Assembly: GCF_038002225.1 (NCBI RefSeq)
Contig: NZ_JBBOCA010000001.1
Location: 5,828,001 to 5,892,000 of the forward strand
DNA length: 64,000 bases
Reading direction: 5' to 3'
DNA from: Paenibacillus sp. FSL R7-0204
GTDB taxonomy: Bacteria; Bacillota; Bacilli; Paenibacillales; Paenibacillaceae
The notes below the pieces were generated by a model. It saw only the letters and a list, made by a program, of their open reading frames with translations, ran no database searches and had not been told where the DNA came from. Numbering within the stretch: the stretch's first letter is position 1; each line of letters opens with the position of its first letter. This document shows, piece by piece, positions 7,035-61,398 of the stretch. A program made the position numbers and the translations under genes.

Positions 7035-7220
7035 AGTTGGACTGAGATTCCGTTATATTGGAAAATCCGATCAAATGACAGGATAAACGGACTGAGATTC
7101 CGTTAAGCGCCCTGATATCCGTCATTTTACGCTCAAATGAACAAGATAAGCGCTTCTCAGTCCGCTTCATCCTCAATTATTAGTTTCTGAGGGATATAAC
7201 GTCTTCTCAGTCCGTTTCAC
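7035..7220. repeat. Hairpin-repeat array A, period 50
   Basis: Two direct copies of GGACTGAGATTCCGTTA start at 7039 and 7089. Two inverted copies (CTTCTCAGTCCG) start at 7153 and 7203. The spacing is exactly 50 in both pairs. The core is a small palindrome, AACGGA-CTGAGAT-TCCGTT. Spacers differ. With the element at 7276-7380 it fills the 528-base gap between bdhA-like and galT genes, in which I see no coding region. Confidence 0.8.
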
Positions 7221-7275
7221 CCACAGGTTTCAGTAATTAACCCGCAATAGAGGCGCATATCGTCATTTCCCTGTG

Positions 7276-7380
7276 ACAAGTGGAAACGGCATTGCCGTCC
7301 TTTTAAAGGACGGTACCGTTTCAGCGAGAAAGATAAGGATAATTATAGCGCGAAGCATATACATTCTTATCTTTTAAAAA
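7276..7380 (-). repeat. Intergenic double-hairpin element, copy 2
   Basis: 105 bases, nearly identical to 13552-13656. Hairpin one has arms GAAACGG/CCGTTTC around a nested GTCCTTTTAAAGGAC palindrome. Hairpin two has arms AGATAAG/CTTATCT around TATA..TATA. The right end, TTTTAAAAA, forms the T-run of the galT terminator. Confidence 0.85.
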
Positions 7381-7406
7381 ATGCCCCCGCCGAATCCGGC
7401 AGGGAC
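7376..7406 (-). terminator. Rho-independent terminator of galKET
   Basis: Minus-strand hairpin CCCTGCCG-GATT-CGGCGGGG followed by CATTTTTT. It lies about 35 bases past the galT stop and abuts the repeat element. Confidence 0.75.
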
Positions 7407-7440
7407 AGTACATTTTGCAAACATTAAATTAAGTAAGGTC

Positions 7441-9024
7441 TCAGTTAAAGCCGCTGCTGTTCAGGAACCGGCGGAAGGCCGCCTGTCCTTCCGGCGTGCG
7501 TTTGTAGACTCCGGCATGCTCCAGAATGTGAGTGAACTTCGTCCCCACCTCATTCTGGATGGTCTTCACCGCTTCTTCGCGCTTCAGGGAGGTGCCGAAG
7601 CGGCTTACCAGCTCGGTAACCCAGGAAGTGTGCAGCGCCAGCGGATGCTCCTGGCCCTGGCTCTGGACATCTCCGAGAAGCGCAGTATCGCCCGCGAGTA
7701 TGCCAGCGATGGCGTCAAGCTCTTCCTTGAGCCGTCCCGGCAGAATCGCCAGGCCCATTACCTCAATGAGGCCGATGTTCTCCTTCTTGATATGGTGCAT
7801 CTCCCGGTGCGGGTGGAAAATCCCTTCGGGATATTCTTCGCTGGTCCGGTTGTTGCGCAGCACCAGATCCATCTCGTAGCCGCCGTCCTCTGCCCGGCGC
7901 ACGATAGGGGTAACGGTATTATGCGGAACACTCTCACCGTCCTCTTCGCTGAACGCCAGCACTTCGGCGGCCGGATCGCTGTAGGTCTTCCAGGATTCAT
8001 AGATATGGTTGCCTGCTTCCAGCAGCACCGCCGGATCTTCGGCATGCATCCGCAGCACGGACATTGGCCACTTCACTGTGCTTAAGCTGACACCGGGATA
8101 CGAGGCATGCGTGAAGGTATCCTCTTTGGGTGCCTTCTGGATCGGGAACGTATGCCGTCCGCCCTGGAAGTGGTCATGCGTCAGAATGGAGCCGCCGACA
8201 ATCGGCAGATCGGCATTCGAGCCGATGAAATAATGCGGGAAGGCTTCCACGAAGCTAAGCAGACGCTTCAGCGTATCCTTCGTCAGCTTCATCGGCACAT
8301 GATCATGGTGGAACACGATGCAATGCTCGTTATAGTAGACATAAGGCGAGTACTGGAAGAACCACTTCTCGCTGTTCATCGAGAGCGGGATCACGCGCAG
8401 GTTCTGACGCGGCGGGTGATTGACCCGGCCGGCATAGCCGACATTCTCGCGGCAGAGCTGGCACTTCGGATAGACCGGAGGCGGAAGCAGCCGGGCCATG
8501 GCGATTTCCTTCGGACTTTTCTCCGGCTTGGAGAGGTTGATCGTCATCTCAATATCCCCGTACGGCGACTCTTGAAGCCAATACACATTCTTCGCCACAC
8601 GGTCCATACGGATATAGTTGGAATCAATGCTCAGCTTATAAAAACGGTCCGTTGCCGCCTGAATGCCCTGCTCCGCCCGGATCGCGGCGAACTCCGCATT
8701 CACCTCAGACGGACGGGCCATCAGAAGGCCCATAATCTTCGCATCCAGCAGGTCGCGGTACGTATCCGTATTCTCCGGGATCAGCCCGAGACTGAACCCG
8801 TAATCAATCAGCTGGTCCAGCGGGGCCTGCGGGCTGTCCAGCGGCGCTTCAGTGAACTCACCAGGATACGGCTCGCTGAAGCCGAACTGGTCCAGGAGTT
8901 CATTGCGGCTGTAATCCACATCTGCTGGCTGGATAAGTCCTGTATGTCCGGCCAACAGAACCAGCTGTTCAATCGCATACAACGCCTTCTCAGCGGCAGC
9001 AGCCGTACTATTATCGTTCTGCAT
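7441..9024 (-). CDS. galT: UDP-glucose--hexose-1-phosphate uridylyltransferase, class II
   Basis: Leloir pathway enzyme that transfers UMP between UDP-glucose and galactose-1-phosphate. At 527 residues it belongs to the long Firmicute GalT type, not the 350-residue E. coli type. Features seen: CQLCRENVGYAGR (about 193-205), and HDHFQGGRHTFPI (about 280-292), the His-rich catalytic segment. The ATG has AAGGAG eight bases upstream. It is last in galK-galE-galT, 82 bases after galE, and ends at a strong terminator. Induction by galactose through the divergent AraC regulator is likely but inferred. Confidence 0.95.
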   Translation of the reverse strand: MQNDNSTAAAAEKALYAIEQLVLLAGHTGLIQPADVDYSRNELLDQFGFSEPYPGEFTEAPLDSPQAPLDQLIDYGFSLGLIPENTDTYRDLLDAKIMGLLMARPSEVNAEFAAIRAEQGIQAATDRFYKLSIDSNYIRMDRVAKNVYWLQESPYGDIEMTINLSKPEKSPKEIAMARLLPPPVYPKCQLCRENVGYAGRVNHPPRQNLRVIPLSMNSEKWFFQYSPYVYYNEHCIVFHHDHVPMKLTKDTLKRLLSFVEAFPHYFIGSNADLPIVGGSILTHDHFQGGRHTFPIQKAPKEDTFTHASYPGVSLSTVKWPMSVLRMHAEDPAVLLEAGNHIYESWKTYSDPAAEVLAFSEEDGESVPHNTVTPIVRRAEDGGYEMDLVLRNNRTSEEYPEGIFHPHREMHHIKKENIGLIEVMGLAILPGRLKEELDAIAGILAGDTALLGDVQSQGQEHPLALHTSWVTELVSRFGTSLKREEAVKTIQNEVGTKFTHILEHAGVYKRTPEGQAAFRRFLNSSGFN

Positions 9025-9106
9025 TTCATTTTCTCCTTCTATGGTGCCTTATGCGGCGCTTTGCATTCTGTCTATTTCACCTTCAGGCAATAATCAGACC
9101 TGCTGC

Positions 9107-10093
9107 TTACTCCCCGTAACCTTGCGGATTAGCGGAGTGCCAGCTCCAGGCGCTCTGAATAATGCCTTCCAGATCGGCATGCTGCGGGTCCCAGCCCAGA
9201 ACCTTCCGGGCTTTGTCAGAGGAAGCGACGAGCACTGCCGGATCTCCGGCGCGGCGGTCCTGAACCACAACCGGAATGTCCAGGCCGGTAACCTTCTTCG
9301 CGGTCTCAATGACCTGCTTCACAGAGAAGCCCAGGCCGTTGCCAAGGTTGAAGATATTGCTCGCACTGCCGCTGCGCAGATAAGTTACTGCACGGACATG
9401 CGCATCCGCCAGATCGCTGACATGGATGTAGTCGCGTACGCAGGTTCCGTCCTCTGTCGGATAGTCTTCCCCGAACACAGCGATATTCTCGCGCTGCTTC
9501 AGCGCAGCCTGGAGCACCAGCGGAATCAGGTGGCTCTCCGGACGGTGGTCTTCGCCGATCTTGCCGCTGGCGTGTGCGCCTGCAGCATTGAAGTAGCGCA
9601 GCGCTACGTATTTGATGCCGAGCACTTTGTCGAACCAGGCCATCATGCGTTCCATGGTCAGCTTGGTCTCGCCGTAGACATTCGCAGGCTCGGTGCGGTC
9701 GGTCTCTTCGATAGGCACCTTTTCCGGTTCGCCGTAGGTGGCGGCAGTGGAGGAGAAGACGATTTTATCCACACCGGCATGCTGCATGGCTTCGAGAAGA
9801 CACTGCGTTCCATAGACATTGTTATCGTAGTATTTAACCGGGTCCTTCATACTCTCGCCCACCAGGGAGCTGGCTGCGAAGTGAATTACCGCTTCGATCT
9901 CATTCTCGGAGAACAGCTTCGCCAGCAGCGCCTTGTCGCGCAGGTCGCCCTCGTACAGCTTGCCGCCCAGCAGCGCCTCCCGGTGCCCTGTCAGCAGATT
10001 ATCAATCACCACAACCTCTTCCCCGCGGTCCAGCAGCTCTGCTACTGTGTGTGAACCGATGTATCCTGCGCCGCCCGTTACCAGAATCGCCAT
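9107..10093 (-). CDS. galE: UDP-glucose 4-epimerase
   Basis: Interconverts UDP-galactose and UDP-glucose. It is a 328-residue short-chain dehydrogenase with the NAD-binding motif TGGAGYIGSHT at residues 6-16, the serine of FSSTAATYG near 123, and the catalytic YGETK near 148-152. Its ATG begins one base after the galK stop, and the ribosome site GGAG lies inside the galK end, so translation is coupled. It also supplies UDP-galactose for envelope polymers, so it may be needed without galactose. Confidence 0.96.
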   Translation of the reverse strand: MAILVTGGAGYIGSHTVAELLDRGEEVVVIDNLLTGHREALLGGKLYEGDLRDKALLAKLFSENEIEAVIHFAASSLVGESMKDPVKYYDNNVYGTQCLLEAMQHAGVDKIVFSSTAATYGEPEKVPIEETDRTEPANVYGETKLTMERMMAWFDKVLGIKYVALRYFNAAGAHASGKIGEDHRPESHLIPLVLQAALKQRENIAVFGEDYPTEDGTCVRDYIHVSDLADAHVRAVTYLRSGSASNIFNLGNGLGFSVKQVIETAKKVTGLDIPVVVQDRRAGDPAVLVASSDKARKVLGWDPQHADLEGIIQSAWSWHSANPQGYGE

Positions 10094-10094
10094 C

Positions 10095-11273
10095 TTATTT
10101 CACTCCTTTCAATTCTTCCACGCCATTACCGATGCCGCATACATAGAATTCGCCGGTCAGGCCGGTTCTGTTCTTGTAGGCTTCTCCAACTTCCGTTATG
10201 AACCGCTGCACATCATCCTCATGTACCAGCGATACCGTACATCCCCCGAATCCTGCGCCGGTCATCCGTGAACCCAGTGTGCCCGGAATGCGCTGCGCTT
10301 CTTCCACCATCACATCCAGCTCCTCGCAGCTGACTTCATACAGGTCGCGGAGGGAGACATGGGAGTCATTCATGTACAGGCCGAACTGCTTCAGGTCATT
10401 GTTCTTCAGCACTTCAACCGAGTCGAGCACACGCTGGTTCTCTTCCACCACATGGCGGGCGCGGCGTCTAACGGTTTCGTCCGTAATTCTGTCCTGCAGA
10501 AGCTCGAACTGCTCCGGCTTCACCTCAGCCAGATAGGACAAGGACGGAACCTCCTGCTTGAGGATAGCGAGTGCCTCTTCACATTGGCTGCGGCGCTCAT
10601 TATACTTCGAGTCCACCAGTCCGCGCTTCTTGTTCGTGTTGCCGATAACCAGCTTATAGCTGCCTGTCACGAAAGGTACGAGGGTGTATTCCAGCGTATC
10701 GCACATCAGCAGGATGGCCTGATCGCGCTTGCCGTTGGCCACAGCGAACTGATCCATGATCCCGGAGTTCACACCGACATACTGGTTCTCCGCGCGCTGG
10801 GACAAGAGAGCGATCTCCACCGTATCTGTGTCACCGCCAAGCAGCGTCAGGAAGGCGAAGCCGGTCACTACCTCGATCGAAGCGGAAGAGGACAGGCCGG
10901 AGCCGTTAGGAATCTCACCATGGAACAAAAGATCGTAGCCCCCGGATACCGGGTGACCCTTCTTAGCCAGCTCCACCATAACGCCGACCGGATAGTCCAC
11001 CCATTCGCCGGTCTTGGCTGCGCCAATGTCACTGAAGTCGATGGAAGCTTCATAAGGGAAATTCGTGGATGCGAATTGAACCTTGCCGTCTGTACGCGGC
11101 CGCACGATCAGGGTGGTTCCGAAGTCCAGGGCTGCCGGAAAAACATAACCTCCGTTGTAATCCAGATGCTCTCCGATCAGATTCACGCGGCCCGGTGCAT
11201 AGAATACCCGCGCGGCTTCCCCGCTCTCCCCGTACTTCTTGATAAATGTACTGTTAAGTTCCTGTATACTCAT
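10095..11273 (-). CDS. galK: Galactokinase
   Basis: Phosphorylates galactose to galactose-1-phosphate. The 392-residue protein has the galactokinase signature GRVNLIGEHLDYNGGYV near residue 28, the GHMP ATP motif GEIPNGSGLSSSASIE near 120, and motif 3 GSRMTGAGFGGC near 340. The start is the ATG of MSIQELN because GGAG lies eight bases upstream. The frame runs further upstream but without a ribosome site. It is the first gene of the galKET operon, transcribed away from the AraC-type regulator. Confidence 0.95.
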   Translation of the reverse strand: MSIQELNSTFIKKYGESGEAARVFYAPGRVNLIGEHLDYNGGYVFPAALDFGTTLIVRPRTDGKVQFASTNFPYEASIDFSDIGAAKTGEWVDYPVGVMVELAKKGHPVSGGYDLLFHGEIPNGSGLSSSASIEVVTGFAFLTLLGGDTDTVEIALLSQRAENQYVGVNSGIMDQFAVANGKRDQAILLMCDTLEYTLVPFVTGSYKLVIGNTNKKRGLVDSKYNERRSQCEEALAILKQEVPSLSYLAEVKPEQFELLQDRITDETVRRRARHVVEENQRVLDSVEVLKNNDLKQFGLYMNDSHVSLRDLYEVSCEELDVMVEEAQRIPGTLGSRMTGAGFGGCTVSLVHEDDVQRFITEVGEAYKNRTGLTGEFYVCGIGNGVEELKGVK

Positions 11274-11342
11274 TATTGACACTCCATCCTTTCGCTGCTT
11301 GTGCTGGGACTGTGGATTATAGCTTGCGTCCTTCATGCTTAC

Positions 11343-11390
11343 ATTATAATAAAATCAGACTTGCCCTGATAATGCAATCATGTGTGCAAT
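11343..11390 (-). promoter_or_regulatory. galK promoter with direct-repeat activator site
   Basis: Minus strand: perfect TATAAT at 11343-11348 with a poor -35 (TATCAG at 11366-11371). Directly upstream of that -35 are two direct repeats of ATTGCA (11373-11378 and 11385-11390) spaced 12 bases. A weak -35 next to direct half-sites is the usual layout for an AraC-type activator. Binding by the divergent regulator is inferred. Confidence 0.45.
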
Positions 11391-11508
11391 ATATGGACAA
11401 ATGTGACTTTCGTCTCTGAAGAGACTATACTCGGTAAGAAGAAAAGTGAACGGGCGCTCCCTATACACTTAGCTATGGAAGCGTTCTGCTCAGGAAAGGC
11501 GGCTTGCA

Positions 11509-12366
11509 GTGCAACATACCTATTCAGTAGGATCAAATCCTGTGTATTACGATAAGCATCTGCTGCATGTACTCTTTGCGGGAGAGAGCCAGACCCTTCC
11601 GCTGCATCAGGCGGGTCCCAAGATCTACGATTACTATCTGCTCCATTATATTGAATCAGGCTCCGGGGTCTTCCGGACAGAGGAGCATACGTACGAGCTG
11701 GGGGCCGGGGACTGCTTCCTGATCCACCCGGGCCAGCTGGTCAGCTACATCTCTGATCAGCAGGAGCCCTGGCGATACCGCTGGGCTGCCTTCACCGGCA
11801 GCGATGCAGGACAGCTTGCGCAGCAGGCGGGCTTCGCGCCGCTCGCCCCGGTGCTGTCTACCGCAGGCGGCAGTGTAATTCCCGGAGCGCTTGCCGGGAT
11901 GATGTCCGCCTTCTATGCCAATAAGGAGAGCGCCGCCCTGACCTCTCTGGGGTATCTGTACCTCATCGCAGGGGAAGCGGCGGAGCTGCTGGTCTCCTCC
12001 TCGCGGCTGCCGGGTGCGGAATCACAGATCAAGCGGACGGTGAAGCAAATGATTCACTACATGGCTTCTCAGTATGCCCATCCGGTCTCGATTGAACAGA
12101 TGTGCGACAGTCTGGGGTATAACCGCGCTTATCTCTCCCGCATTTTCAAGCAGGAGACGGGGCTTTCTCCAGTCACTTACCTGCTCAAGCTGCGGGTAGA
12201 GAAGTCGCGCCAGCTGCTGCGTGAACGCCCTGAGCTGTCCGTGGAGCAGGTAGCAGCATCGGTCGGACTGACCGATGCCCTGTATTTCTCCCGGCAGTTC
12301 AAGCGCTTCTACCGCCAGCCCCCCACCGCTTACCGCCAAGCTACAGTGAACCCTGGGGAGAAATAG
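11509..12366 (+). CDS. AraC-family transcriptional regulator next to galKET
   Basis: 285 residues. An N-terminal cupin-type sugar-sensing domain (about 15-160; HQAGPKIYDYYLLHYIESG, then GDCFLIHPGQLVSYI) is joined to a C-terminal pair of helix-turn-helices (about 185-280; MCDSLGYNRAYLSRIFKQET and VAASVGLTDALYFSRQFKRF). The start is GTG with AGGAAAGG upstream. It is divergent from galK and shares its intergenic region, so it probably activates the galactose genes. A site with direct repeats lies in that region. Similar regulators (MsmR type) often respond to alpha-galactosides, which remains an alternative. Confidence 0.88.
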   Translation: MQHTYSVGSNPVYYDKHLLHVLFAGESQTLPLHQAGPKIYDYYLLHYIESGSGVFRTEEHTYELGAGDCFLIHPGQLVSYISDQQEPWRYRWAAFTGSDAGQLAQQAGFAPLAPVLSTAGGSVIPGALAGMMSAFYANKESAALTSLGYLYLIAGEAAELLVSSSRLPGAESQIKRTVKQMIHYMASQYAHPVSIEQMCDSLGYNRAYLSRIFKQETGLSPVTYLLKLRVEKSRQLLRERPELSVEQVAASVGLTDALYFSRQFKRFYRQPPTAYRQATVNPGEK

Positions 12367-12385
12367 CCCTATCACCTAGAGCAAT

Positions 12386-12422
12386 AGCCCGTCTCCTGAA
12401 CAGGAAGCGGGCTGCTTGCGTT
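12386..12422 (+). terminator. Probable terminator of the AraC-type gene
   Basis: Hairpin AGCCCG..CCTG-AACA-GG..CGGGCT at 12386-12413, followed by a mixed T-rich stretch. The T-run is imperfect. Confidence 0.45.
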
Positions 12423-12476
12423 GTTATTTATGGAAGCCGGACCTTAAGGCAACTCTTAGGCTAAGTGCCTTAGGCT

Positions 12477-13475
12477 TCACTCCTCTGTCTTAAGGATCGT
12501 CTCGATCCGGTCCAGCTCTTCCTGCGTGAAGTCACTATGAGACAGAGCGGCGATATTCTCCTCGATCTGGCTGACCCGGCTGGCGCCGATCAGCGCCGAG
12601 GTGACCCGGCCGCCCCGCAGCGTCCAGAGCAGGGCAAACTGGGCCAGACTCTGGCCGCGCGCTACCGCCATCTGGTTCAGCGCGTGGATTCTGCGCAGCA
12701 CCTCCGGCGTAATCCGGCTCTCATTCAGCGCAGCCGAAGGTCCGGCTGCCCGGGAATCTCCAGGGATGCCGTTCAGATATTTATTCGTCAGCAGACCCTG
12801 CGCCAGCGGAGTGAAGGCAATACTGCCCACCCCATGCTCCTCCAGCACCTCCTGAAGCCCGCCTTCAATCCAGCGGTCCAGCATGGAATACCTCGGCTGG
12901 TGAATCAGCAGCGGAGTGCCCAGCTCCTTCAGAATCGCAATAGCCTGCCGGGTCTGCTCCGCCGAGTAGTTAGATAAGCCAATGTACAGCGCCTTGCCTG
13001 AGCGAACAGCATGATCCAGCGCTCCCATCGTTTCTTCCATAGGTGTCTCCGGGTCCGGGCGGTGGGAGTAGAAGATATCCACATAATCCAGTCCCAGCCG
13101 CTTCAAGCTCTGGTCCAGACTGGACAGGATATATTTACGTGAACCCCAGTCGCCGTAAGGGCCGGGCCACATCGTATATCCCGCCTTGGTCGAGATCACC
13201 AGCTCGTCACGGTACGGCGCGAGATCCCGGGCCAGCACCTTGCCGAACAGCTCTTCCGCCGATCCGGCCGGAGGCCCGTAGTTATTCGCCAGGTCGAAGT
13301 GGGTAATCCCGAGATCAAAAGCGCGGATAATCATCTCACGGCCATTCTCATAAGCATCAATGCCGCCGAAATTATGCCACAGGCCCAGTGAGATGGCTGG
13401 AAGCTTGAGACCTGACCTGCCGGTGCGGTTGTAACGCATTCCTTCATACCGTTCATCACTAGCCACATATACCAT
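12477..13475 (-). CDS. Aldo/keto reductase, YghZ/Gpr-like
   Basis: NADPH-dependent aldo/keto reductase of 332 residues (AKR14-like). The N-terminus (VASDERYEGMRYNRTGRSG) and blocks such as ISLGLWHNFGG, FDLANNYGPPAGSAEE, ISTKAGYTMWPGPYG and VDIFYSHRPDPETPMEET closely follow E. coli YghZ, the L-glyceraldehyde-3-phosphate reductase. The family tetrad Asp-Tyr-Lys-His is covered by FDLANNYG, STKAG and YSHR. The start is the ATG of MVYVASD with GGCAGGG upstream; a longer in-frame extension looks unlike the family. In related bacteria such enzymes detoxify methylglyoxal and other aldehydes. It stands alone in its transcription unit. Confidence 0.9.
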   Translation of the reverse strand: MVYVASDERYEGMRYNRTGRSGLKLPAISLGLWHNFGGIDAYENGREMIIRAFDLGITHFDLANNYGPPAGSAEELFGKVLARDLAPYRDELVISTKAGYTMWPGPYGDWGSRKYILSSLDQSLKRLGLDYVDIFYSHRPDPETPMEETMGALDHAVRSGKALYIGLSNYSAEQTRQAIAILKELGTPLLIHQPRYSMLDRWIEGGLQEVLEEHGVGSIAFTPLAQGLLTNKYLNGIPGDSRAAGPSAALNESRITPEVLRRIHALNQMAVARGQSLAQFALLWTLRGGRVTSALIGASRVSQIEENIAALSHSDFTQEELDRIETILKTEE

Positions 13476-13551
13476 GTTATATCCCTGCCTCTCGTATCTC
13501 TTTTGTGAATACCCTTCTTTAAACACACGGCCTCATAAGTAATCTTGTTCT

Positions 13552-13656
13552 ACAAGTGGAAACGGCATTTCCGTCCTTTTAAAGGACGGTACCGTTTCAG
13601 CGAGAAAGATAAGGATAATTATCGCGCGAAGCATATACATTCTTATCTTTTAAAAA
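13552..13656 (-). repeat. Intergenic double-hairpin element, copy 3
   Basis: 105 bases differing from 7276-7380 at only a few positions (for example ATTATCGCG for ATTATAGCG). On the minus strand it starts in the T-run at the end of the sirtuin gene and ends about 75 bases before the aldo/keto reductase start. Same orientation and context as copies 1 and 2. Confidence 0.85.
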
Positions 13657-13680
13657 AAGACTGGGCGTTAGTCCAGCAGT
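13651..13680 (-). terminator. Weak terminator at the end of the sirtuin gene
   Basis: Short CTGG..CCAG hairpin overlapping the stop codon, followed on the minus strand by TCTTTTTTTAAAAG, whose T-run is the end of the repeat element. The stem is only 4-5 base pairs. Confidence 0.4.
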
Positions 13681-14408
13681 CCCTGCACTCTACCCAGCAC
13701 CTCTCCGATCCGCTCTGTTATAATCAGATCTGCCTGATCGTCATACGGGGTAGGCTCGCCATTAAGCAGTACTGTATGCTGTCCCCTGAAGTAAGTGACC
13801 AGGCTTGCAGCCGGCTGAACGGTAAGCGAGGTACCGCCGATGATCAGCAGATCGGCTGCTGCAATGGCATCCACAGCTTCAACCAGCACTTCATGATCGA
13901 GCGCTTCCTCATAGAGCACCACATCCGGCTTGATGATGCCCCCGCAGTCCTCACAACGCGGTACAGAGCCATCCTGCTCCAGCCATTCCTCCAGGCCGTA
14001 ATAGCGCTGGCAGCCCATGCAGTGATTGCGGTGGATAGAGCCGTGCAGCTCCAGAACCCGGCGGCTGCCGGCAATCTGATGAAGACCGTCGATATTTTGC
14101 GTAATGACCGCCTTCAGCCTGCCGCTCTCCTCCAGCTCCGCAAGCAGCCGGTGGGCCCCGTTCGGCTTCGCTCCGGGATGAATCATCTTGCTGCGGTAGA
14201 AATCAAAAAAAATGTCCGGCGAGGACATAAAAAAGCTGCGGCTAAGCATCACCTCAGGCGGATAGGGAGAGTTGTGCTGTGTCTGGTACAGACCGGCTGC
14301 CGAACGGAAGTCCGGGATGCCGCTCTCCGTCGATGTTCCGGCACCGCCGAAAAAGACGATATTATTGCTTTTTTGAATCCAGGAAGCCAGTAGCTGTAAT
14401 TGTTCCAT
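13668..14408 (-). CDS. Sir2-family NAD-dependent protein deacylase
   Basis: 246 residues, typical bacterial CobB/SrtN length. NAD-binding GAGTSTESGIPDFRS is near residues 21-35, TQNIDGLH is near 103 with the catalytic His in LELHGSIHR, and a zinc module is formed by CMGCQRY and CEDCGG (about 127-155). Removes acyl groups from lysines, for instance on acetyl-CoA synthetase in other bacteria. It is last of a three-gene minus-strand group with a HAD phosphatase (39-base gap) and an alpha/beta hydrolase. Neither neighbour points to a particular substrate. Confidence 0.93.
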   Translation of the reverse strand: MEQLQLLASWIQKSNNIVFFGGAGTSTESGIPDFRSAAGLYQTQHNSPYPPEVMLSRSFFMSSPDIFFDFYRSKMIHPGAKPNGAHRLLAELEESGRLKAVITQNIDGLHQIAGSRRVLELHGSIHRNHCMGCQRYYGLEEWLEQDGSVPRCEDCGGIIKPDVVLYEEALDHEVLVEAVDAIAAADLLIIGGTSLTVQPAASLVTYFRGQHTVLLNGEPTPYDDQADLIITERIGEVLGRVQGLLD

Positions 14409-14447
14409 GATCTACACCTGTCCTCTCTGTACCTATTCGTAATGCAT

Positions 14448-15218
14448 TCAGATCGTTAAGCGGAGCGCCGGATAGCCGGATACCACAATATCCGCATCCA
14501 GCAGATGGTCTGCCCTTCCGTCCGGTGAGATTCCGACTGCAAGCCGCAGTCCAGCCCCCCGGCCCAGCTGCATATCCGCATTGCTGTCACCGATAATAAC
14601 CGCCTCTTCGGGCAGCAACTCCAGCTCCCGGCAGGCCTTCTCGGCCATCTCCGGTGCAGGCTTGCCGCTCTTTACCCGGTCGCGGGTAACCACCGCCCCG
14701 AAGTATTCTGAGATGCCAAGCCATTCCAGATGCTCGCGGGTGGTGGAGAGATTGTCAGAGGTTACAACGCCAAGCTTCAGGGAAGCGGCGGCACACTGCT
14801 CCAGGAATGGTATTAATCCCGGCATAGGTACAGCGGTACGGCGGCGGCGAAGCTCATTCATGGCCTCCTTGGAGATGGCATTCACACGCGTCACCGCTTC
14901 ATTCCAGGGGACACCCGTTGTATAGAGCTGCCAGGCCAGAATCCCGGTGGATTCCTCAGCCGTTGCCATGGAGAGCGGACCGGCGGGATCATATCCGGTG
15001 ATTCGTCCGGAAGAATCATGCGTCGTCCCCAGCACCCGGGCCAGATCAGCTCCCGTTACGGTTCTGCTGCCAATCAGGGTCAACTGGCTGCCCAGCCCTT
15101 CAAGCACCAGTTCGGCCCAGCTGCCCCAGGTGGCCAGAAGATCAAGCAGCGTGCCGTCCTTATCGAACAGGATGCCGCTTACGGGAACGGAGAGTTCATT
15201 GATGTGAAGTACAGGCAT
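14448..15218 (-). CDS. HAD-superfamily hydrolase, phosphoglycolate-phosphatase-like
   Basis: 256 residues. HAD motif I is DKDGTLLD (about 20-27) with the nucleophile Asp and the acid/base Asp. Motif II is the Ser/Thr of VVTSDN near 154. Motif III is the Lys in RDRVKSGKPAPE near 180. Motif IV is IIGDSNADMQLG near 212-223. A helical C1-type cap lies between motifs I and II. The first start has AAGGAG seven bases upstream. It probably dephosphorylates a small sugar or glycolate phosphate; the exact substrate cannot be read from sequence. Same strand as and close to the sirtuin gene. Confidence 0.88.
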   Translation of the reverse strand: MPVLHINELSVPVSGILFDKDGTLLDLLATWGSWAELVLEGLGSQLTLIGSRTVTGADLARVLGTTHDSSGRITGYDPAGPLSMATAEESTGILAWQLYTTGVPWNEAVTRVNAISKEAMNELRRRRTAVPMPGLIPFLEQCAAASLKLGVVTSDNLSTTREHLEWLGISEYFGAVVTRDRVKSGKPAPEMAEKACRELELLPEEAVIIGDSNADMQLGRGAGLRLAVGISPDGRADHLLDADIVVSGYPALRLTI

Positions 15219-31539: not shown

Positions 31540-31654
31540 TTGCTTTTTCTGGTCTTCCATTTGTTATTTTTGTTATATAAAATATAGCTTACAAGAAAAA
31601 TACACCCTGCGGGTGACAGATGCTGTACTCCGGCTCATGTCCCCTTGCGGCTGC

Positions 31655-31731
31655 GTTGTATTCGGTTTTCCGAATACAATAGCCCATATGCCTGTGACGT
31701 TGCCCAATGTATTCGGTTTTACGCATACATC
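31655..31731. repeat. Hairpin-repeat array B, period 51 (two units)
   Basis: Cores TGTATTCGG-TTTT-CCGAATACA (31657-31678) and TGTATTCGG-TTTT-ACGCATACA (31708-31729), starts exactly 51 bases apart. It lies in the 518-base gap between the response regulator and the binding-protein gene, which otherwise holds only regulatory sequence. Confidence 0.7.
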
Positions 31732-51349: not shown

Positions 51350-51361
51350 TATTTAATTAAG

Positions 51362-53731: not shown

Positions 53732-54325
53732 ATGTCCACTTCTCAAGAACAGGATAAATTGAAGAACAGACGCAGAGGCAAGGAGCTCGAAGCCGCTATA
53801 CTCCAGGCCGTACGGGAAGAGTTGACTGAGCGGGGGTATTCCAATCTTACGATGGACAGTGTGGCCGAGCGGGCGGGAACTAGCAAAGCCGTACTCTACC
53901 GCCGGTGGGCGAACCGCGCTGAGCTTGTCCTTGGCGCCATCCGGGAACGTGTGCCCCTGCCGCTGGAGGAAGTGCCTGATTACGGGAATCTGAGGGACGA
54001 TGTATGCGGGGTGCTTCGGGCCATGAATCAGAATAATATACAAGCAATGTTGAATGCTTTCTACGGGCTTGTAGCAGAAATGGGCGATATGCCGCTTGCC
54101 TCCTATATTTTCCCCCATGGGCGTCAAAACAGGACCATGTCGATTTTGCTGGAGCGGGCTGTGGAGCGGGGAGAAGTATCTGCCGAAGCCGTGACTCCCC
54201 GAATGCTCACTTTGCCGTCCGATCTGGCCCGCCATGAGCTGATGCTGTATAACGCACCTATGTCGGAGGAGACGATTGCCAATATTGTGGACGAGGTGTA
54301 CCTGCCGCTGGTGTTGAAACGGTAA
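53732..54325 (+). CDS. TetR-family repressor of the DHA2 exporter
   Basis: 197 residues. N-terminal TetR helix-turn-helix (about 12-60: ILQAVREELTERGYSNLTMDSVAERAGTSKAVLYRRWANR), then a ligand-binding C-terminal domain of the TetR_C type (about 75-195). The ATG MSTSQEQ is chosen; an upstream GTG overlaps the AAAGGTGG ribosome site. Divergent position and the shared operator support control of the exporter and itself. Inducer unknown. Confidence 0.92.
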   Translation: MSTSQEQDKLKNRRRGKELEAAILQAVREELTERGYSNLTMDSVAERAGTSKAVLYRRWANRAELVLGAIRERVPLPLEEVPDYGNLRDDVCGVLRAMNQNNIQAMLNAFYGLVAEMGDMPLASYIFPHGRQNRTMSILLERAVERGEVSAEAVTPRMLTLPSDLARHELMLYNAPMSEETIANIVDEVYLPLVLKR

Positions 54326-54380
54326 TTCTTCATTCCCGGCTCTCAGCTGGACAAGCCACACACAGCTTAGAATAAATAGA

Positions 54381-54425
54381 AAGCCCAGAGTCTGCAAGGA
54401 GGTTCCACCTTGATGCTCTGGGCTT
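54381..54425 (+). terminator. Terminator of the TetR gene, possibly bidirectional
   Basis: Outer arms AAGCCCAGAG and CTCTGGGCTT pair perfectly, with an inner AAGG..CCTT stem. The flanking T-run is short. Confidence 0.6.
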
Positions 54426-54468
54426 GATTATGTTCCTGCTATCCTCCCAAGTGCTCCGGCCAGACATT

Positions 54469-54583
54469 TTAGCTCTGCCCAGCCCACAGCCGTCTTCTCA
54501 GCTCCAGCTCTTCATATACCCGCTCCAGCGGCAGCCGCATGGCCTGACTCGCAATATTCACGGGAGTGCGGCGAGACGGAGGT
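54469..54583 (-). pseudogene. Remnant of a second STM3941-like gene (3' end only)
   Basis: About 115 bases match the end of the gene at 51485-52039 at DNA level. Minus-strand reading after a one-base deletion gives TPVNIASQAMRLPLERVYEE then LELRRRLWAGQS and a stop. Compare TPVNITGQSMQLPLERIYEE and MELRRRLWAGRR in the intact gene. Similarity stops at about 54583, where hairpin array C begins. The rest of the gene is absent. Confidence 0.8.
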
Positions 54584-54909
54584 TTCGGTTTTTCGATTAC
54601 ATTGGACCTACGTACCACACTCTGTCCCAATGTGATCGGTTTTTCGATTACATTGGGATCACGCTCCGCCCTCGATCCCTATGTGATCGGTTTTTCGATT
54701 ACATTTGGCCTACGCGCCGCCCTCGGTCCCATTGTGATCGGTTTTTCGATTACATTTGGCCTACGCGCCGCCCTCGGTCCCATTGTGATCGGTTTTTCGA
54801 TTACATTCGGCTCACGCTCCGCCCTCGATCCCAATGTGATCGGTTTTTCGATTACATTCGGCTCACGCTCCGCCCTCGATCCCAATGTGATCGGTTTTTC
54901 GATTACATT
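54580..54909. repeat. Hairpin-repeat array C, period 51, seven units
   Basis: Six full cores start at 54631, 54682, 54733, 54784, 54835 and 54886, plus a first unit missing its left end at about 54580. Each core has arms TGTGATCG and CGATTACA around GTTTTT, so it forms a hairpin with one G.T pair. The 27-base spacers are alike and adjacent units are near identical, which points to tandem growth. With the gene remnant and terminators, this accounts for the 677-base gap 54326-55002. Confidence 0.92.
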
Positions 54910-54930
54910 CGGCGCTGGGCGTAATGCGAA

Positions 54931-54962
54931 ACAGCGGTGCCCCCGTAGTGGGTGCACCGCTG
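54931..54962 (-). terminator. Hairpin after the xylanase gene
   Basis: ACAGCGGTGC..GCACCGCTGT, a 10-base perfect stem, about 40 bases past the stop. Only TTTCGC follows, so termination may be partial. Confidence 0.5.
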
Positions 54963-55002
54963 TCCAGTTACTTTCTTCAAAAATTTCAGCCTCTCACTCA
55001 GG

Positions 55003-58000
55003 CTACAGCTTCCAGATCCGGTACAGAATCACCGCTGCTTCCGCGCGGGAGAGGGTGTCCCCCGGAGCAAGCTTATTGTTCTTACCGTTCACTACGCCGT
55101 ACTTCAGCAGGGCGGTCACGCTGTCCTTGGCATAGGCGGAGATTTGACCGGCATCGGTGTAAGATGCTATCGATCCGCTGCCTTCCGCCGTGATTCCGGC
55201 CGCCTTCAGGGCACGCGCCGCAATTACCATCATCTCCTGGCGGGTGATGACGCCCGCTGGCTTGAAGGTATTGCCCGCATAGCCTGTGACGATACCAAGC
55301 TGCTTCGCGGCCGCAAGCTCCTTGCTGTATGCTGCGTTATTCTGTACATCGCTGAAGCCTGCAACTGCTTCAGCAGCAGCTTTAAGCTCCAGCACCTTCA
55401 CCAACGAGGCGGTGAAGTCTGCTCTGTTCATAGGTGCCGCAGGCATGAAGCTATTGCCTCCCGGAAGGATATCGCGCGCCGCCATGGCAAAAGCTGCCTG
55501 CCTCGCCCATGACAGGCTGCCGAGATCTGTATAGGACGGCGGAGCGAAGGCTGCGGCAAATGTACCTAACTCCGGAGTACGGAACAACAGCGCTTCCTTC
55601 GCTGCATCGTAACGGCTGTTCACCACAGCAGACCACGTGCCGTTGCCGGTGAGCGAACGGACCAGAATGGACTCCAGGCTGCCAAGCTCTGCTGCTGACG
55701 CTGTGTAAGGAATAGAGACGGTCATCGCGCTGCTGCCAGACAAGGCTACCTTCTGCCCGCCTGCAAGCAGGCTCAGTTCCACCACTGGACGGCTGCCGGT
55801 CTGCTGGAGAGCAGCGGCATTCAGGCCTTCGGCTGTGGACTGCTTGACCCGGATGCTAACATATTCAGTCGTTGCTGTAATTCCTGCGAGCTGCTCACTT
55901 GGAATAGACAGCGTAGCAAGGCCGTTCTGGAGGACAAGCAGGTACTTCTCCTGCGTCTTCAGGCCTTGAAGCGGCAACTGGGCTTCATAGGAGGCCACGC
56001 CGGTCAGGTTCGCCAGATCGATGATGATCTGCTTCCGTCCGTCTGCTGCCGGGGCCGCCTGCTTCAGGGCCTGCTGCCACAGCTCAGCCGTAACTACGGC
56101 CTTCGCCTCTGTGCCTTCGGTCTTCACGACAGGTCTGAGCGTCACTACGCCATCCTTGCTGTCCATCTGCGCAGGCTTAGGCGCAGGAGTGCTGGTGCTA
56201 TAGCTGGTTCCGCCAGAGACTGGTGCAGGTGTGGCTGTTGGTGTTGCTTCCGGTGCCGGTGTTGGCGTCGGCTTCGTCGGCGGCTCAGCGCCGTCTTTGG
56301 CCTTAAGCGTCAGCACGCCGAAGACGGAGGTGTCCTGATAGCCGTTGCCAGTGGTATCATTCCAGGCGGCCACACTTTGCCGGACGCCGCTCTTGGCATC
56401 GTTGATCTGAGTGTCGAAGCCGACCTTGGTGCCGCCGGCTGGCATGATTGTTTTGAACGGAATCTTCATTTCAAGCGTATAGTTCGTTCCGGTTACCTTG
56501 GTTGCCGACTCGAAGCCTGCACCAATGGCTGCCGGACTGAAGGAGGCTTCATTGTCGTAATTGACCCGGTATTGTCCGTCATCGCTCTCATAGAAGGTCG
56601 TGCGGCCGAAATTCTCATCCAGGAAAATCTCGACAGAGTCCTGCTCCCATGGATTCACATTGCTCTTGTCCAATTGAGCGTCATTCACTTGGACCAGCAC
56701 ATACAGATTCTGGTCATCCCACAGGGTACGCGTGGTTCCGCTTGCGCCCTGCCAGGCCATCTGATAACGGTTCACAGCCATCTCAGGCGCAGAGGCCCAA
56801 ATTCCATCCGCTGTTCCGTCAATAACCGGCGTGCCGTACACCGCCTCTGACACGTTGGCTTCCGCCGTATTCGGCTCATGCTCAGCCATGAATTTGGCCG
56901 GATCAATGACCGCGTAGTAGGCTGGTTTGGCCTGCAAATCCCTGTCGAACAGCAGCGGGCTTGACTCCGCTCTCCAGCTTGTGCGGTCGTCCATACCCCA
57001 GAAGGTTACCCGCGCGATATGGTCAGCATGGGCCTTGTAAATATCCATTAATTTGGCATACAGATAGCCTTGGGCAATCTGTTCCTTCTCCGTCTGCTTA
57101 TTCCCGCTGCCGGCCTGAATATCCAGCTCGGTAATGCTGACTTCTACGCCAAGGGAAATGAACTTCTCCAACGACAGCTTGACATTATCAGGATTCGTAT
57201 TGATATTGTAGTGCGCCTGCATCCCCACACCATCAATCAGCAGCTTGCCGGGATGGGTTAGTGCGTACTTCTCATTCAGTTCCTTGACCATACTGTAGAT
57301 GGCCTGGGCCTTGTTCTGGTTATCGTCATTGTAATCATTGTAATACAGCTTGATATCCCACTCCGGATGCTGGTCCAGTACTTCTCTGGCCGCCAGGAAC
57401 GCCTGCTCCAGATAGTCCGGACCGATGGCATCATACCACGGAGCCTTGCGCAGCGCCGCTTGCCAGTCGGAGGGATTGGACGGGTTATCATTCATCGCCT
57501 CGTTGACCACATCCCAGGAGATCACCCGGTCTCCGAAATGCTCCATGACTCCCTTGATGTGCGCCCTCAGGTTAGCGAGTGCTTCGTCACGCCCCAGGGG
57601 AACGCTTTTACCCGCTGCATCCGTGGTCAGGTTCATCCAGTCAGGCGACTGCTGATACCAAACCAGCACATGCCCGTGCATCTTCATGCCTTCGGCAAGC
57701 ACCTTGTTCACCATCGCATCCGCCGCTGTAAAAGTGAAATTACCCTTAGTCGGCTGCAGCGCATCCGGCTTCATCGCATTGCCTGCGGTAGCAACGTTGT
57801 GATGCATTTTCAGCAGGTCCAGCCGCACACCTTCCAGATCCTCGGCGGATAGCGCGTTGCCGATCAGGAAGTCATTTTGATAGGTTGTTTTTAGCGGAAT
57901 CAGATCTCTCTGAATATCCACCGGAGCGGTACCGGTATGTTTGAAATTAATATCATCGATATAAAAGGAAGCGGTTGCATTGTTGGAGCTTTCAATGTAA

Positions 58001-58995
58001 AGGGTCAGATGTTCGCCGCCTACGCTGTTATAGCGGTAGCTGCCCTCATATTTCACCCAGCCGTCAGCCGTACTGATTGTCTTGGGAGACAGCGCCACAT
58101 AACTCGCTCCTGAATCATTGCCCACCTGCGTGGACAGCTGGAGCTGTGCGCTCGCCGGTTCGATCAGCTTCACCCAGGCAGACAGGGTATATTCGCTGCC
58201 CTTGTCCACATACTTCTCCACACGCAGGGAAGGCCCGTGCCAGGTATTGCTTCTGCCCTCGACCTTCAGGGAATATGAACCGCCCTCGGTATGATTCGCT
58301 TCATTCGTTACGGTAAGCGTCTCGGTTCCGGCTCTGCCGGTAAAGCCGCCTAATTCCTGATCTTCAAAAGTAACCTTACTGAACGGCAAGGCCGGTTCAC
58401 GCACAGGCTCTTCCCCGCCGCCCGGAGCGGACTCTGTCGTTATCAGAAGATCACCAAGGTAGAAGGGTACTGTGGCTCCCTTGTCATTGGAATTGATGCG
58501 CAAGGAGTGGTCCCGCTTGTCAAGGTCCGTGGCACTGGTGTCCACCGTGAATGTCTTCGTCAGTGTGACCGATTGCCCTGCCACATAAGGTGTTGCTGCA
58601 TAATTCCCGTAGCTGTTCACTGTCTGCAGCGCCGCTTCTGCTCCCTCCGGGAGTGTCACCTTCGCGTCAACGTAGACAACAGCCGTTACGGTGTAAGTTT
58701 GTCCATGCTTAAGGCCGAGATCGGTGAACTTGAAATCCACCCCGTCCCAGTTATCCTTCCGGTTGCTTACGTATAAGGCTGCACCATCGGCATTCCCTGC
58801 AAAAGGAACCTCATTCACCGCACTCAGGCTGGCTCCCCCGGAATGGCTCGTCTTGCCTGTGCCATTCGCAAAGGTCTCGTGATATACCGTGGTCTTAGCC
58901 TCGGCTGCCTCCGCCACCGGAAGATACCCGCCTGCCGGAAGAAGCAGAAGGGCTGCCAGCAGCACCAGAGAGACTTGCTTGATTATTCTCTTCAT
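55003..58995 (-). CDS. Modular cell-surface endo-1,4-beta-xylanase (CBM22-CBM22-GH10-CBM9-SLH3)
   Basis: 1330 residues. Signal peptide (about 1-31, ending AEA), two CBM22-type modules (about 35-180 and 205-350), a GH10 catalytic domain (about 355-695) with acid/base Glu499 in WDVVNEAMN and nucleophile Glu623 in SITELDIQ, and a CBM9-type module (about 705-900). A Pro/Thr linker ([17 protein letters not shown]) and an unassigned beta-rich region (about 935-1140) follow, then three SLH repeats (about 1145-1330) that bind the pyruvylated wall polymer. It cuts xylan while fixed to the surface. The ATG of MKRIIKQ has GAGGAG eight bases upstream. A near-cre palindrome lies at 59033-59046. Confidence 0.95.
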
Positions 58996-59032
58996 GCATT
59001 GCACTCCTCTGTAAGAATTTGGGTTTCAATGA

Positions 59033-59046
59033 GTTAAGCGCTTACA
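59033..59046. promoter_or_regulatory. Near-cre palindrome upstream of the xylanase gene
   Basis: GTTAAGCGCTTACA keeps the AAGCGCTT core and the right end of the cre pattern but not the leading TG. It is about 40 bases before the start codon, so it would act as a roadblock or overlap the promoter. Confidence 0.4.
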
Positions 59047-59173
59047 GCTAATGTGGAAGCCTCCCCCTTCACCACCCAAATCGTAGCATACGGACCCAAG
59101 TGCGTCTTACCTGAAATTAAAGGTTGTACCGTGCTTTTTATAGTCTTTTTCGCCGGAGGGTAAGATTGAGCTA

Positions 59174-59203
59174 AAATAAAGAAGACCCCTGTATCAGGGA
59201 TCT
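59174..59203 (-). terminator. Terminator of the MATE exporter gene
   Basis: Minus strand GATCCCTG-ATA-CAGGGGTC followed by TTCTTTATTTT. Confidence 0.6.
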
Positions 59204-59221
59204 CCTCGTTATCATCCTATG

Positions 59222-60607
59222 CTAGATCAGCTTGTGCGCATACCACTTCTTGCCCCGGAAGCGCCACAGGAATACTGCTCCGCGGACCGCCCACTCGCAG
59301 TTCATCGCCAGCCATACCCCCAGCACCCCGTAGCCCAGTACAATCCCGAGAATATAGCCGAACACCACCCGGAACAGCCACATGGTCAGCATTGAAGCAA
59401 TTGAGGTGAAGCGGGAATCTCCCGCTGCCCGCAGCGCGGACGGCAGAATGAAGCTGAAGGCCCAGAGCGGAATCTGGGCAATTGCATTGACCAGCAGCAC
59501 CACGAACAGATCATCGATAATCTCCACAGGCGGGGAGAAAATAGACACCAGCGGGTGGAACAGCGGCATCAGGATCAAGGCCACCAAAGCGTAAGAGGCG
59601 GAACCGATCCACAGGAAGGACTTGATGAACTTCCGGGCATCCTTCACATCCCCCCGTCCGATACACTGGCCGACCACGGTCACAATCGTCAGCGACAGCG
59701 CACTGGCCGGAATCTGAAAGACCATCGCCAGTGAGCCGGCAATGGCATTAGTAGCAATGGCATACGTGCCCAGACTGACAATGAAGATCTGCGTCAGCAG
59801 CTTGCCGCCGTTGAAGAACATCTGCTCTGCGGCGAACGGTACGCCGATGAACATGATTTTGCGCAGCATCGTAAGCGGAACATGGAACAGGTCGCGGAAA
59901 CGCACACGCAGCACCGAATCGAACTTAAACAGATAGATCAAGGCACAGGCCATCCCCACATAACGCGCAATATTGACCGCAAGTGTCATGCCCAGCACAC
60001 CCATATCCAGCAGGTTAATAAAGACGACGTTAAGGATAACGTACAGCACGTTCATAATCAGCGACAGCATCAGCGAAGCCCGTGTCCGGCCCACGCCCCG
60101 CAGCGCACCGCATACCGCCTGAACCACGGCAATCCCCAGATACGACATGCTGCTGCCGATCATATAGACCCGGGCATTGTCCAGCACATCGGCGGAGGCC
60201 GTCCCGAACAGCAGATTCAGAATGGGCGTATGGAAGGACATCAGCAGCAGACCGATTCCCACCGCAAGCAGCGAGACCGAGGTTACCGAGCCGGCTGTAG
60301 CCTGGGAGACCATGCGGTCATTCCCGCTTCCTTTATACTGCGCAACCACCACCGTCCCCCCGGTCGCAATCGCCACAAATACATTGATCAGAAAAATATT
60401 CAGGGAATCCACCATATTCACCGCACTGACCGCCGCCATCCCCGACGAGCTGATCATTGCGGTGTTGACCAGGTTCAGCCCGATAATGAAGGCCTGGTCA
60501 ATGAGAATAGGCAGAAACAAGGCGATAATTTGCCGGTAATCCATGCTGTCTCCGGACAGATATTTTTCCAGCCATTTCTTGGCCGGTTGAGGAGCTTGAA
60601 GCTGCAT
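59222..60607 (-). CDS. MATE-family efflux transporter
   Basis: 461 residues, about 12 transmembrane helices in two related halves. The first half begins PILIDQAFIIGLNLVNTAMISSSG (about 33-56), typical of the DinF/NorM-like MatE family; the paired block MLRKIMFIGVPFAAEQMFFNGGK lies near 245. Exports cationic compounds with Na+ or H+; substrate not predictable. No regulator is adjacent. The upstream region holds no clear promoter. Confidence 0.92.
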   Translation of the reverse strand: MQLQAPQPAKKWLEKYLSGDSMDYRQIIALFLPILIDQAFIIGLNLVNTAMISSSGMAAVSAVNMVDSLNIFLINVFVAIATGGTVVVAQYKGSGNDRMVSQATAGSVTSVSLLAVGIGLLLMSFHTPILNLLFGTASADVLDNARVYMIGSSMSYLGIAVVQAVCGALRGVGRTRASLMLSLIMNVLYVILNVVFINLLDMGVLGMTLAVNIARYVGMACALIYLFKFDSVLRVRFRDLFHVPLTMLRKIMFIGVPFAAEQMFFNGGKLLTQIFIVSLGTYAIATNAIAGSLAMVFQIPASALSLTIVTVVGQCIGRGDVKDARKFIKSFLWIGSASYALVALILMPLFHPLVSIFSPPVEIIDDLFVVLLVNAIAQIPLWAFSFILPSALRAAGDSRFTSIASMLTMWLFRVVFGYILGIVLGYGVLGVWLAMNCEWAVRGAVFLWRFRGKKWYAHKLI

Positions 60608-60809
60608 ACATTGATCACATTCTTTTCTGTAGAATAATTGCAGGCGTACAATACATTCCTTCCAGTTTACTACAGATTCCGCTCCAAGTCTGTGTTATAT
60701 ATGGATTTCGTTCAGATTACCGGATAACATTCCCTGCCCCCTAAGTAAATTCCTGGGTCCGGCCGAAATATAAAATGAGAGTATTTACTTACGGAAGGAG
60801 GAGCCTATT

Positions 60810-60989
60810 ATGAATAACGAGATCGTCAAAAGTCTGATCCAGCAGGTGACGGAAGATGTGTTATCCGAGAACCAAGCTGCCTTGGAGCAGAGTGGAAACA
60901 GCCAGGCCAGCATTCAACTAGCTGTGCAATTGTCCGCTGTTACCACCCTTAAGATCCTTGAAAAGCTGGAGCTGATCGATAAAGATTAA
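60810..60989 (+). CDS. Small hypothetical protein (59 residues)
   Basis: MNNEIVKSLIQQ start, then two predicted amphipathic helices (about 3-28 and 33-57), no Cys, no membrane segment, and an acidic end ELIDKD. The ribosome site AAGGAGG, eight bases before the ATG, is one of the best in the window, and a strong terminator follows at 61032, so it is very likely a real gene. I recognise no family. It is on the plus strand between minus-strand neighbours and therefore its own unit. Confidence 0.75.
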   Translation: MNNEIVKSLIQQVTEDVLSENQAALEQSGNSQASIQLAVQLSAVTTLKILEKLELIDKD

Positions 60990-61031
60990 CCGCACAGCCT
61001 GCCTGTGCTACATACCCGTAGGGCACTCCAC

Positions 61032-61074
61032 GCAAAAAACCGCAGGAAGCAAATTTCGCCTGCGGGTTTTTTGC
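61032..61074. terminator. Strong bidirectional terminator
   Basis: GCAAAAAACCGCAGG..CCTGCGGGTTTTTTGC: perfect arms with A and T runs on both sides. Serves the 59-residue gene on the plus strand and could stop readthrough from the minus strand. Confidence 0.85.
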
Positions 61075-61084
61075 ATGCCTATGG

Positions 61085-61398
61085 GGATTCAGGTGCACTA
61101 GTGCTCCACGTTTACGCTCCAGACCTGTTTTTGGCAAATCCAGGTGCAGTAATGCACTTCATTTACGCTGCGTGCCCACTTTCGGCTAATTCAGGTGCAC
61201 TGATGCACCTCATTCGCTCGCTCAGCCAACTATTTACGAATTCAGGTGCACTTGTGCTCTTCATTTACGTTCTCCTCCCGTTTTCGGCAAATTCAGGTGC
61301 AATTCTGCTCTTCATTCTGACGGCTCAGAGGGATTTATCCCCCTCATTTTCGCTCACCGCCCATTTTCAGCTGAATCAATGGGATTTTTCCCTTTCAT
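61085..61398. repeat. Hairpin-repeat array D, period 51
   Basis: Units starting CAGGTGCA at 61090, 61141, 61192, 61243 and 61294, each exactly 51 apart. Cores are small palindromes that vary in sequence while staying paired: GTGCA-GTAA-TGCAC, GGTGCA-CTGA-TGCACC. Two further cores, GGGATTTATCCC at 61330 and GGGATTTTTCCC at 61381, are again 51 apart, after one 34-base step. It fills the 471-base gap 60990-61460 with the terminator. Confidence 0.85.

Follow-up and report, generated by a model that had tools for sequence, protein, structure and literature searches.

The BOX elements of Streptococcus pneumoniae are composed as boxA-(boxB)n-boxC, in which tandem stem-loop units vary in number between strains, and 60.8 per cent of them are on the leading strand, a figure that mirrors the coding bias, with a slight over-representation between divergent genes (PMC3049150). 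REP elements are short palindromes with alternative complementary stems that occur as singletons and in clusters and carry a conserved short motif beside the palindrome (PMC3733652), and elements of the IS200/IS605 type are described as recognising hairpins and inserting into the lagging-strand template (PMC6006769). Here we report on four families (A-D) of hairpin-bearing intergenic repeats with a period of 51 bp, found in a window of 64,000 nucleotides of Paenibacillus sp. FSL R7-0204 (G000:C1:5828001-5892000) and elsewhere in the same 7.71-Mb genome, hereafter the source genome (G and L numbers are our handles for genomes and loci). No description of these repeats was found in open-licence PMC literature. 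Our tentative account, to which we would give a probability of roughly 0.45, is that A-D are BOX/REP-like non-autonomous modular repeats that entered the single-stranded lagging-strand template and afterwards grew and shrank by whole units.

The likeness to BOX, drawn from architecture and not from sequence, lies in dispersed Firmicute repeats with variable tandem hairpins, and in one A subfamily the units stand between common ends that may answer to the end modules; the difference is that A-D point with the replication fork at 42 of 43 chromosomal places and lie between divergent genes at only 1 of 44 places. With REP, BIME and REPIN elements A-D share palindromes with alternative complementary stems, occurrence as singletons and clusters, and an adjacent motif, but they are without the GTAG/CGTC tag and have a consensus AATG or AAT beside the palindrome. 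Nor do they follow the inverted-dimer habit of REPINs, since neighbouring units run head-to-tail and strands are mixed at L045 only among the 44 places, and a further difference from the REP/RAYT system is that no RAYT scored above cut-off in 16 genomes. Lagging-strand insertion, as described for IS200/IS605-type elements, would give fork polarity of the kind seen at these 42 of 43 places, although ends, guide pairing and a dedicated TnpA are not established for A-D and Y1 transposase genes show no consistent link to the arrays. Minisatellites (variable-number tandem repeats) are alike in their unit-wise copy-number variation at orthologous loci, whereas A-D are scattered over many loci and have a single period and a single polarity throughout; and in place of the identical repeats and unique spacers of CRISPR, A-D have spacers that are related from unit to unit, a comparison of the repeats themselves in which no search for cas genes was made.

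Orientation with the replication fork

Units were sought with iterated hidden Markov models (HMMs) in a sample of the source genome made up of the window and 99 tiles of 20 kb (2.04 Mb), in which a home-made hexamer model called 1613 genes, and 968 intergenic regions of at least 60 bp were scanned. The models returned 155 units (66 A, 31 B, 30 C and 28 D) and a single match in a reversed-sequence control; with E limited to 0.01 and unit length to 28 bp or more, 140 were left for counting. These occupy 44 places, 43 of them chromosomal once contig C2 (L129) is excluded, contig C3 having been dropped. For polarity the chromosome arms were split at 0 and 3.8 Mb, with dnaA located at 0.202 Mb; the first tiles were in this way assigned to the wrong arm, and these hold no units, yet their genes enter the count of 1223 of 1601 genes that run with the fork.

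Where the neighbouring genes converge (21 places), the units point with the fork in every case, an outcome whose chance would be 2 to the power -21 if either convergent gene set the orientation with equal odds, and at both of the places where the two neighbouring genes run head-on to the fork (2/2) the units still follow it. Because the bias exceeds the coding bias and the convergent places follow the fork, the polarity is not mere mimicry of gene orientation; it is replication, not transcription, that sets the orientation, as the convergent places indicate. Single-unit chromosomal places are directed in the same way (15/15), and fork polarity of even single units favours insertion into, or templating from, the lagging-strand template.

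Exact-pattern searches gave the same orientation. Exact A sites number 257 in the source genome, and 94 of the 100 listed (0.25-2.86 Mb) run with the fork. In five relatives, for which dnaA was placed and the terminus assumed to lie opposite, 77 of 78 listed C sites do so (39/40 in G103, 18/18 in G115, 6/6 in G123, 3/3 in G119 and 11/11 in G042), and among the 33 listed A sites in G042 there are 24 in agreement, with another 6 at 0.32-0.55 Mb. The initial annotation of the window had proposed a replication or recombination process that copies by length; a link to replication is borne out, as orientation follows the fork, but a length-measuring process is not. What is new is the near-errorless fork-direction polarity of hundreds of units, the pneumococcal small repeats being only mildly strand-biased.

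A dispersed element of 183 bp (L095:11830-12012, sense minus, and L265:2794-2976, with many places in G042 and G136) carries a B-like half hairpin at each end, with ~130 bp of other sequence between them; its 11 listed copies in G042 all run with the fork.

Unit families and the 51-bp period

The repeats of the window, with one neighbouring hairpin, are the following.

7036..7220, no strand: E tetrad, two forward and two inverted ~20-nt units (from sequence)
31636..31730, minus strand: family B, two units 51 apart (HMM, palindrome spacing)
54585..54913, minus strand: array of 6.5 family A units, each 51 bp long (Tandem Repeats Finder (TRF), HMM, centre spacing)
54931..54963, minus strand: hairpin resembling a terminator, belonging to the minus-strand gene upstream (50.5 between its centre and that of the first A hairpin)
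61083..61317, minus strand: family D, five units of a mixed D/C array (HMM; TRF 51-bp array 61129-61316)
61321..61398, minus strand: family C, two units ~36 apart, within the D/C array (HMM, orthologous arrays)

The HMM units of family A span 54607-54913 on the minus strand, which is the sense strand of that array and the direction of the replication fork in that arm; the two palindromes at 31656-31730 have centres 51.0 apart, and the 61.1-kb array mixes two hairpin families (5 D and 2 C) with one short step of ~36. It had been claimed that four arrays in the window share one architecture and look unrelated in sequence. The first claim stands for the three head-to-tail 51-bp arrays at 31.6, 54.6 and 61.1 kb but not for the inverted tetrad at 7.0 kb, and the second has to be given up: A and B recognise each other's HMM, and C and D have a common, in-register spacer.

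All four families are built on a frame of 26 nt with the palindrome followed by a G-rich spacer of 25 nt, 51 nt in all. The unit starts with AAT in each of them, a palindrome of ~20 nt comes next, and the 26-nt part ends in ATT in A and B and in A(A/T)T in C and D, the A of this latter ending being present in 97 of 148 units of family C and 101 of 115 of family D. Family C (AATGAAAGGGATAAATCCCTCTGAATCC...) and family D (AATGAGGAGCA.AAGTGCCCCTGAATTC...) have a spacer in common but not a palindrome; column similarity between the two, computed for the spacer without the columns used for anchoring, is 0.50 at offset 0 and 0.20-0.32 when the spacer is shifted by 1 to 6. Judging by sequence, A and B are related families, and A/B and C/D likely go back to one ancestor, a proposal for which the similar frame is the sole basis. 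Part of the shared period is accounted for by common descent, of A and B on the one hand and of C and D on the other.

The period itself is sharp. Among the 66 scanned intergenic regions with any repeat, the best self-similarity lag was 51 in 29, the second commonest (50) being found in 3, and three shuffled replicates gave 4 matches in all. With A-D units masked, the top lag of exact 9-mers was still 51 (13 regions), with 50 in 8 regions, 30 in 9 and 33 in 8, at a mean of 2.0 regions per lag. The proposal of a sharp 50-51 period beyond chance therefore holds in the 2.04 Mb, where no broad spread of periods was seen. Between units of the same family less than 130 bp apart, the step was 51 in 68 of 76 cases in the source genome, and the period carries over to other Paenibacillus genomes, with 203 of 220 steps in named Paenibacillus loci that hold an exact C 20-mer (many of them from P. 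tritici, an array-rich species) and 59 of 63 in five other genomes, of which one is probably also P. tritici, sampled at other places; steps off 51 are mostly 52, then 53, 50 and 47.

This constancy is to be set against the divergence of the units, for in 14 A/B unit pairs from different arrays, a comparison that by construction took only pairs at 51-bp spacing, the spacers are 0.52 identical (shuffled 0.35) and the hairpins 0.83. The suggestion that unit length is kept while sequence drifts is thereby upheld: the hairpins change sequence and the unit length does not. In a BLAST search with a D/C array of 951 bp, 32 of the 39 places listed (15 genomes, 66-85% identity) were exactly as long as the stretch of query they matched, and of the others six were off by 1 and one by 22. 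The longest place measured 943 bp. This agreement is to be read with the preference of local alignments for gap-free stretches in mind; it is compatible with both selected and inherited length and does not tell the two apart.

Cores are exchanged within the constant frame. At L182 in genome G103, 14 D units give way to 4 C units inside one 51-bp array, and in the source genome 3 of 8 C-to-D neighbour pairs are in register on a reading of HMM offsets. In mixed arrays of the source genome, read in the sense direction, B precedes A or D, and C precedes D, in 14 neighbour pairs versus 3, and the opposite order was seen in G103, where two arrays (L182, L183) have D before C. Pairing of the hairpin was assessed in 44 C/D units (from a draw of 70 out of 263 distinct anchored ones), one row of whose MAFFT alignment is out of register: 84.9% of the cells of an 8-bp stem are paired, and the covariation score is 0.328 versus 0.180 for shuffled and at most 0.181 for slid alignments.

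Of 198 genomes of the order searched with BLAST, 15 contain relatives of this 951-bp array, and each of the 15 belongs to the window's genus. The exact C pattern is present in 19 of 100 genomes, patchily within the genus, and the exact C 20-mer was met in 31 stretches from five named Paenibacillus species and from no other genus of the collection searched, which may leave out records near the window's genome.

Orthologous loci differ by whole units. Behind the same terminator at the 54-kb locus, G135 has one unit and the source genome seven, the last of them cut; the DNA after the source array matches G135 DNA several hundred bases further on, and the source genome seems, from this comparison of sequences, to have lost the intervening stretch. 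No unit was seen at this locus in G136 and G118, and the downstream sequence is different in G042, G059, G137 and G051. At the 61-kb locus five relatives have 5 to 9 units, counted by eye, and the source genome seven, the C and D parts varying separately between relatives; the copy in G137 is interrupted by other sequence, and the array was not seen in G051 and G103. Such arrays are candidate variable-number markers for Paenibacillus strains. In one composite A subfamily a common left end was found at three places and a common right end at four, around 1, 2, 5 or 6 units; common end modules were not seen for other arrays.

Proposed route of spread and rival explanations

There is reason to consider that repeats of this kind were spread by way of the fork. 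Units or whole composite elements were dispersed to intergenic sites in one fork-relative orientation, and would have moved as hairpin-bearing single strands into the single-stranded lagging-strand template in the manner of IS200/IS605 or, to word the route more broadly, by insertion into or templating from that template. Arrays in place gain and lose whole units, as was observed between species, and might do so by slippage or unequal recombination; the hairpin arms may stay complementary through selection or through template-switch correction of imperfect palindromes; and the 51-bp length would be inherited within each superfamily and kept by some constraint on the distance from hairpin to hairpin. 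The repeats bear, in this respect, on how transposase-less repeats spread and on whether fork asymmetry orders and sizes tandem repeats.

Several observations weigh against spread by this route. The sole chromosomal exception to fork polarity, at L045, is an inverted A block between fork-directed B units; 6 of the 100 listed exact A sites of the source genome disagree with the fork, as do 3 of the 33 listed A sites in G042, where five of the six sites at 0.32-0.55 Mb disagree as well on the assumption of a terminus directly opposite dnaA, at 0.33 Mb; and the sites of one array are not independent of one another. No clean empty site was found among the orthologues, and the insertion point and any duplication were unseen. 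C/D pairs changed on both sides do not exceed shuffles (5 versus 4.3), which themselves ignore the relatedness of the units.

Nor was a mobilising enzyme found. RAYT model NF047646 scored above cut-off in none of 16 genomes, seven of which have weaker matches, and matches to the Y1 transposase family (PF01797) do not track arrays, numbering 10, 5 and 4 in the array-rich genomes G000, G042 and G059 and 12 and 11 in G028 and G034, which are without the exact A and C patterns. At 14 of 18 distinct Y1 loci there is no unit in the stretch examined (about 2 to 10 kb), five of these 14 being situated at contig ends or in genomes that lack the exact A and C patterns; units lie within ~0.6 kb at two of the others (L152, L154) and 1.6-2.5 kb away at the remaining two (L170, L177). 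An IS605-type element (TnpA and TnpB) is present at L152:1456-2957 and at L154, its TnpA starting ~0.2-0.25 kb downstream of A arrays, in copies from two genomes at non-orthologous places. Linkage of RAYT or Y1 genes to the arrays was rejected, 14 of the 18 Y1 loci being unit-free over the stretch examined and the two adjacent cases non-orthologous.

An unknown enzyme or fork machinery that recognises the hairpin and copies a set length could instead lay down a fixed 26+25-nt module with exchangeable cores, on the lagging-strand template only and with no known HUH/RAYT transposase, but we think this rather unlikely. The chief rival to lagging-strand entry, and an unlikely one in our estimate, is selection for a polar DNA signal in replication, fork restart or segregation, comparable with KOPS or Chi, the opposite orientation being selected away; fork polarity, retention at orthologous sites and the fixed spacing speak for it. 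KOPS/AIMS are polar octamers with a strand bias relative to replication and an abundance that rises towards the terminus (PMC5993296), and A-D are like them in the strand bias but are 51-bp hairpin modules that show no such gradient. From origin to terminus, by fifths of the arm, the density is 2.5, 2.0, 2.03, 2.89 and 1.25 places per 100 kb, and the lack of a rise towards the terminus across these fifths speaks against a signal of the KOPS/AIMS form. The patchy occurrence in the genus (19 of 100 genomes for the exact C pattern) and the exchange of hairpin sequence also sit poorly with a selected signal.

It might alternatively be supposed that units land in both orientations and that only one strand of the hairpin expands or survives lagging-strand slippage. 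Palindromes and tandem arrays slip strand-dependently, and copy number here varies by whole units, but the 15 of 15 single-unit chromosomal places that follow the fork, together with the similar folding of a near-perfect palindrome on both strands, make such mutational persistence quite unlikely.

A function in RNA, with transcribed 3' hairpin arrays acting in termination, mRNA stability or regulation, draws on the gene context. Most of the many intergenic sites that hold the repeats are close to the 3' end of a gene, and the repeats are in excess between convergent genes (21 of 44 places versus 142 of 960 intergenic regions) and in deficit between divergent ones (1 of 44 versus 187 of 960). 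The stems are paired, and sense-strand mismatches are A.C in 248 cases versus G.T in 89, A.C being G.T or G.U on the antisense strand, though few founder events may lie behind the excess. However, orientation ignores transcription at the 21 of 21 convergent places that follow the fork, and clearly better folding of the antisense strand is confined to A (16 of 21 hairpins; C 41 versus 35, D 38 versus 34). Rfam models at gathering score matched one tRNA in the window and none of the arrays. We also find no fixed distance from terminator to first unit in the 14 cases measured, and on balance consider an RNA function improbable.

The distance from terminator to first unit was tried as a rule and rejected: among 40 places whose upstream gene is co-directional, a terminator was found at 14, 4 to 199 bp away, by a strict finder that missed visible terminators, including that of the 54-kb array, and the 50.5 spacing at the latter is no general rule. 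At L086:3985-4034 and L107:4403-4439, which are different loci, single A units stand after a near-identical, terminator-bearing flank of ~60 bp, which suggests a larger mobile element with the unit at its end.

Binding by a DNA-architectural protein to an array of sites set about five helical turns apart would account for a fixed 51-bp step across families with different cores. Five turns of B-DNA amount to ~52.5 bp, however, so that a 51-bp step falls 1.5 bp short and the error accumulates with each unit; by this textbook geometry the original idea of about five helical turns per unit is weak, and the cores are too different for one obvious binding site, which leaves this explanation very improbable. 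A reading as protein-coding repeats (51 bp being 17 codons) is largely refuted, for although some frames are open through arrays (87 in the 42 arrays of at least 5 units, 66 antisense and 21 sense), the mean of 2.1 open frames (of 6) per array is below the 3.1 of shuffled perfect units, and the off-51 steps (52, 53, 50 and 47) are not multiples of 3 apart.

Inverted tetrads and other repeat classes

The E tetrads are inverted, have a step of 50 and form a class of their own. In the tetrad at 7.0 kb the motif GGACT occurs at 7039 and 7089 and AGTCC at 7159 and 7209, giving steps of 50/70/50; the arrangement is symmetric, hence without polarity, and distinct in class from A-D. Across intergenic regions, CGGACT shows a step of 50 in 5 of 7 forward-forward and 6 of 9 inverted-inverted pairs; of 17 forward-to-inverted pairs, 8 have a step of 71 and 7 more one of 121-122. 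Motif spacing yielded 18 E candidates, at least 3 of them false by eye (L079, L113, L125), and was used in place of a nested inverted-repeat scan that proved too strict (10 regions, 4 at 48-54, two of these being A arrays). Tetrads of ~190 bp in F-F-R-R order with steps near 50/71/50 were noted at 7036-7220 of the window, at L061:7794-8423, at L129:18030-18253 and at other places.

The source genome, like G103, G001 and G039 (L208, L258, L259), also has repeats of other sequence families whose direct steps are 50-52, and some of these have inverted partners. Near E-type elements and in a relative there is a palindromic stretch, GGAAACGG..CCGTCCTT..AAAGGACGG..CCGTTTC (window ~7280-7370, L119:6491-7286 and, in G059, L190), that resembles another miniature repeat. 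A coding-looking, collagen-like repeat on contig C2 (L129:1-423) has TRF periods of 42, 51, 60 and 93 bp, and its 51-bp period is unrelated to the hairpin arrays.

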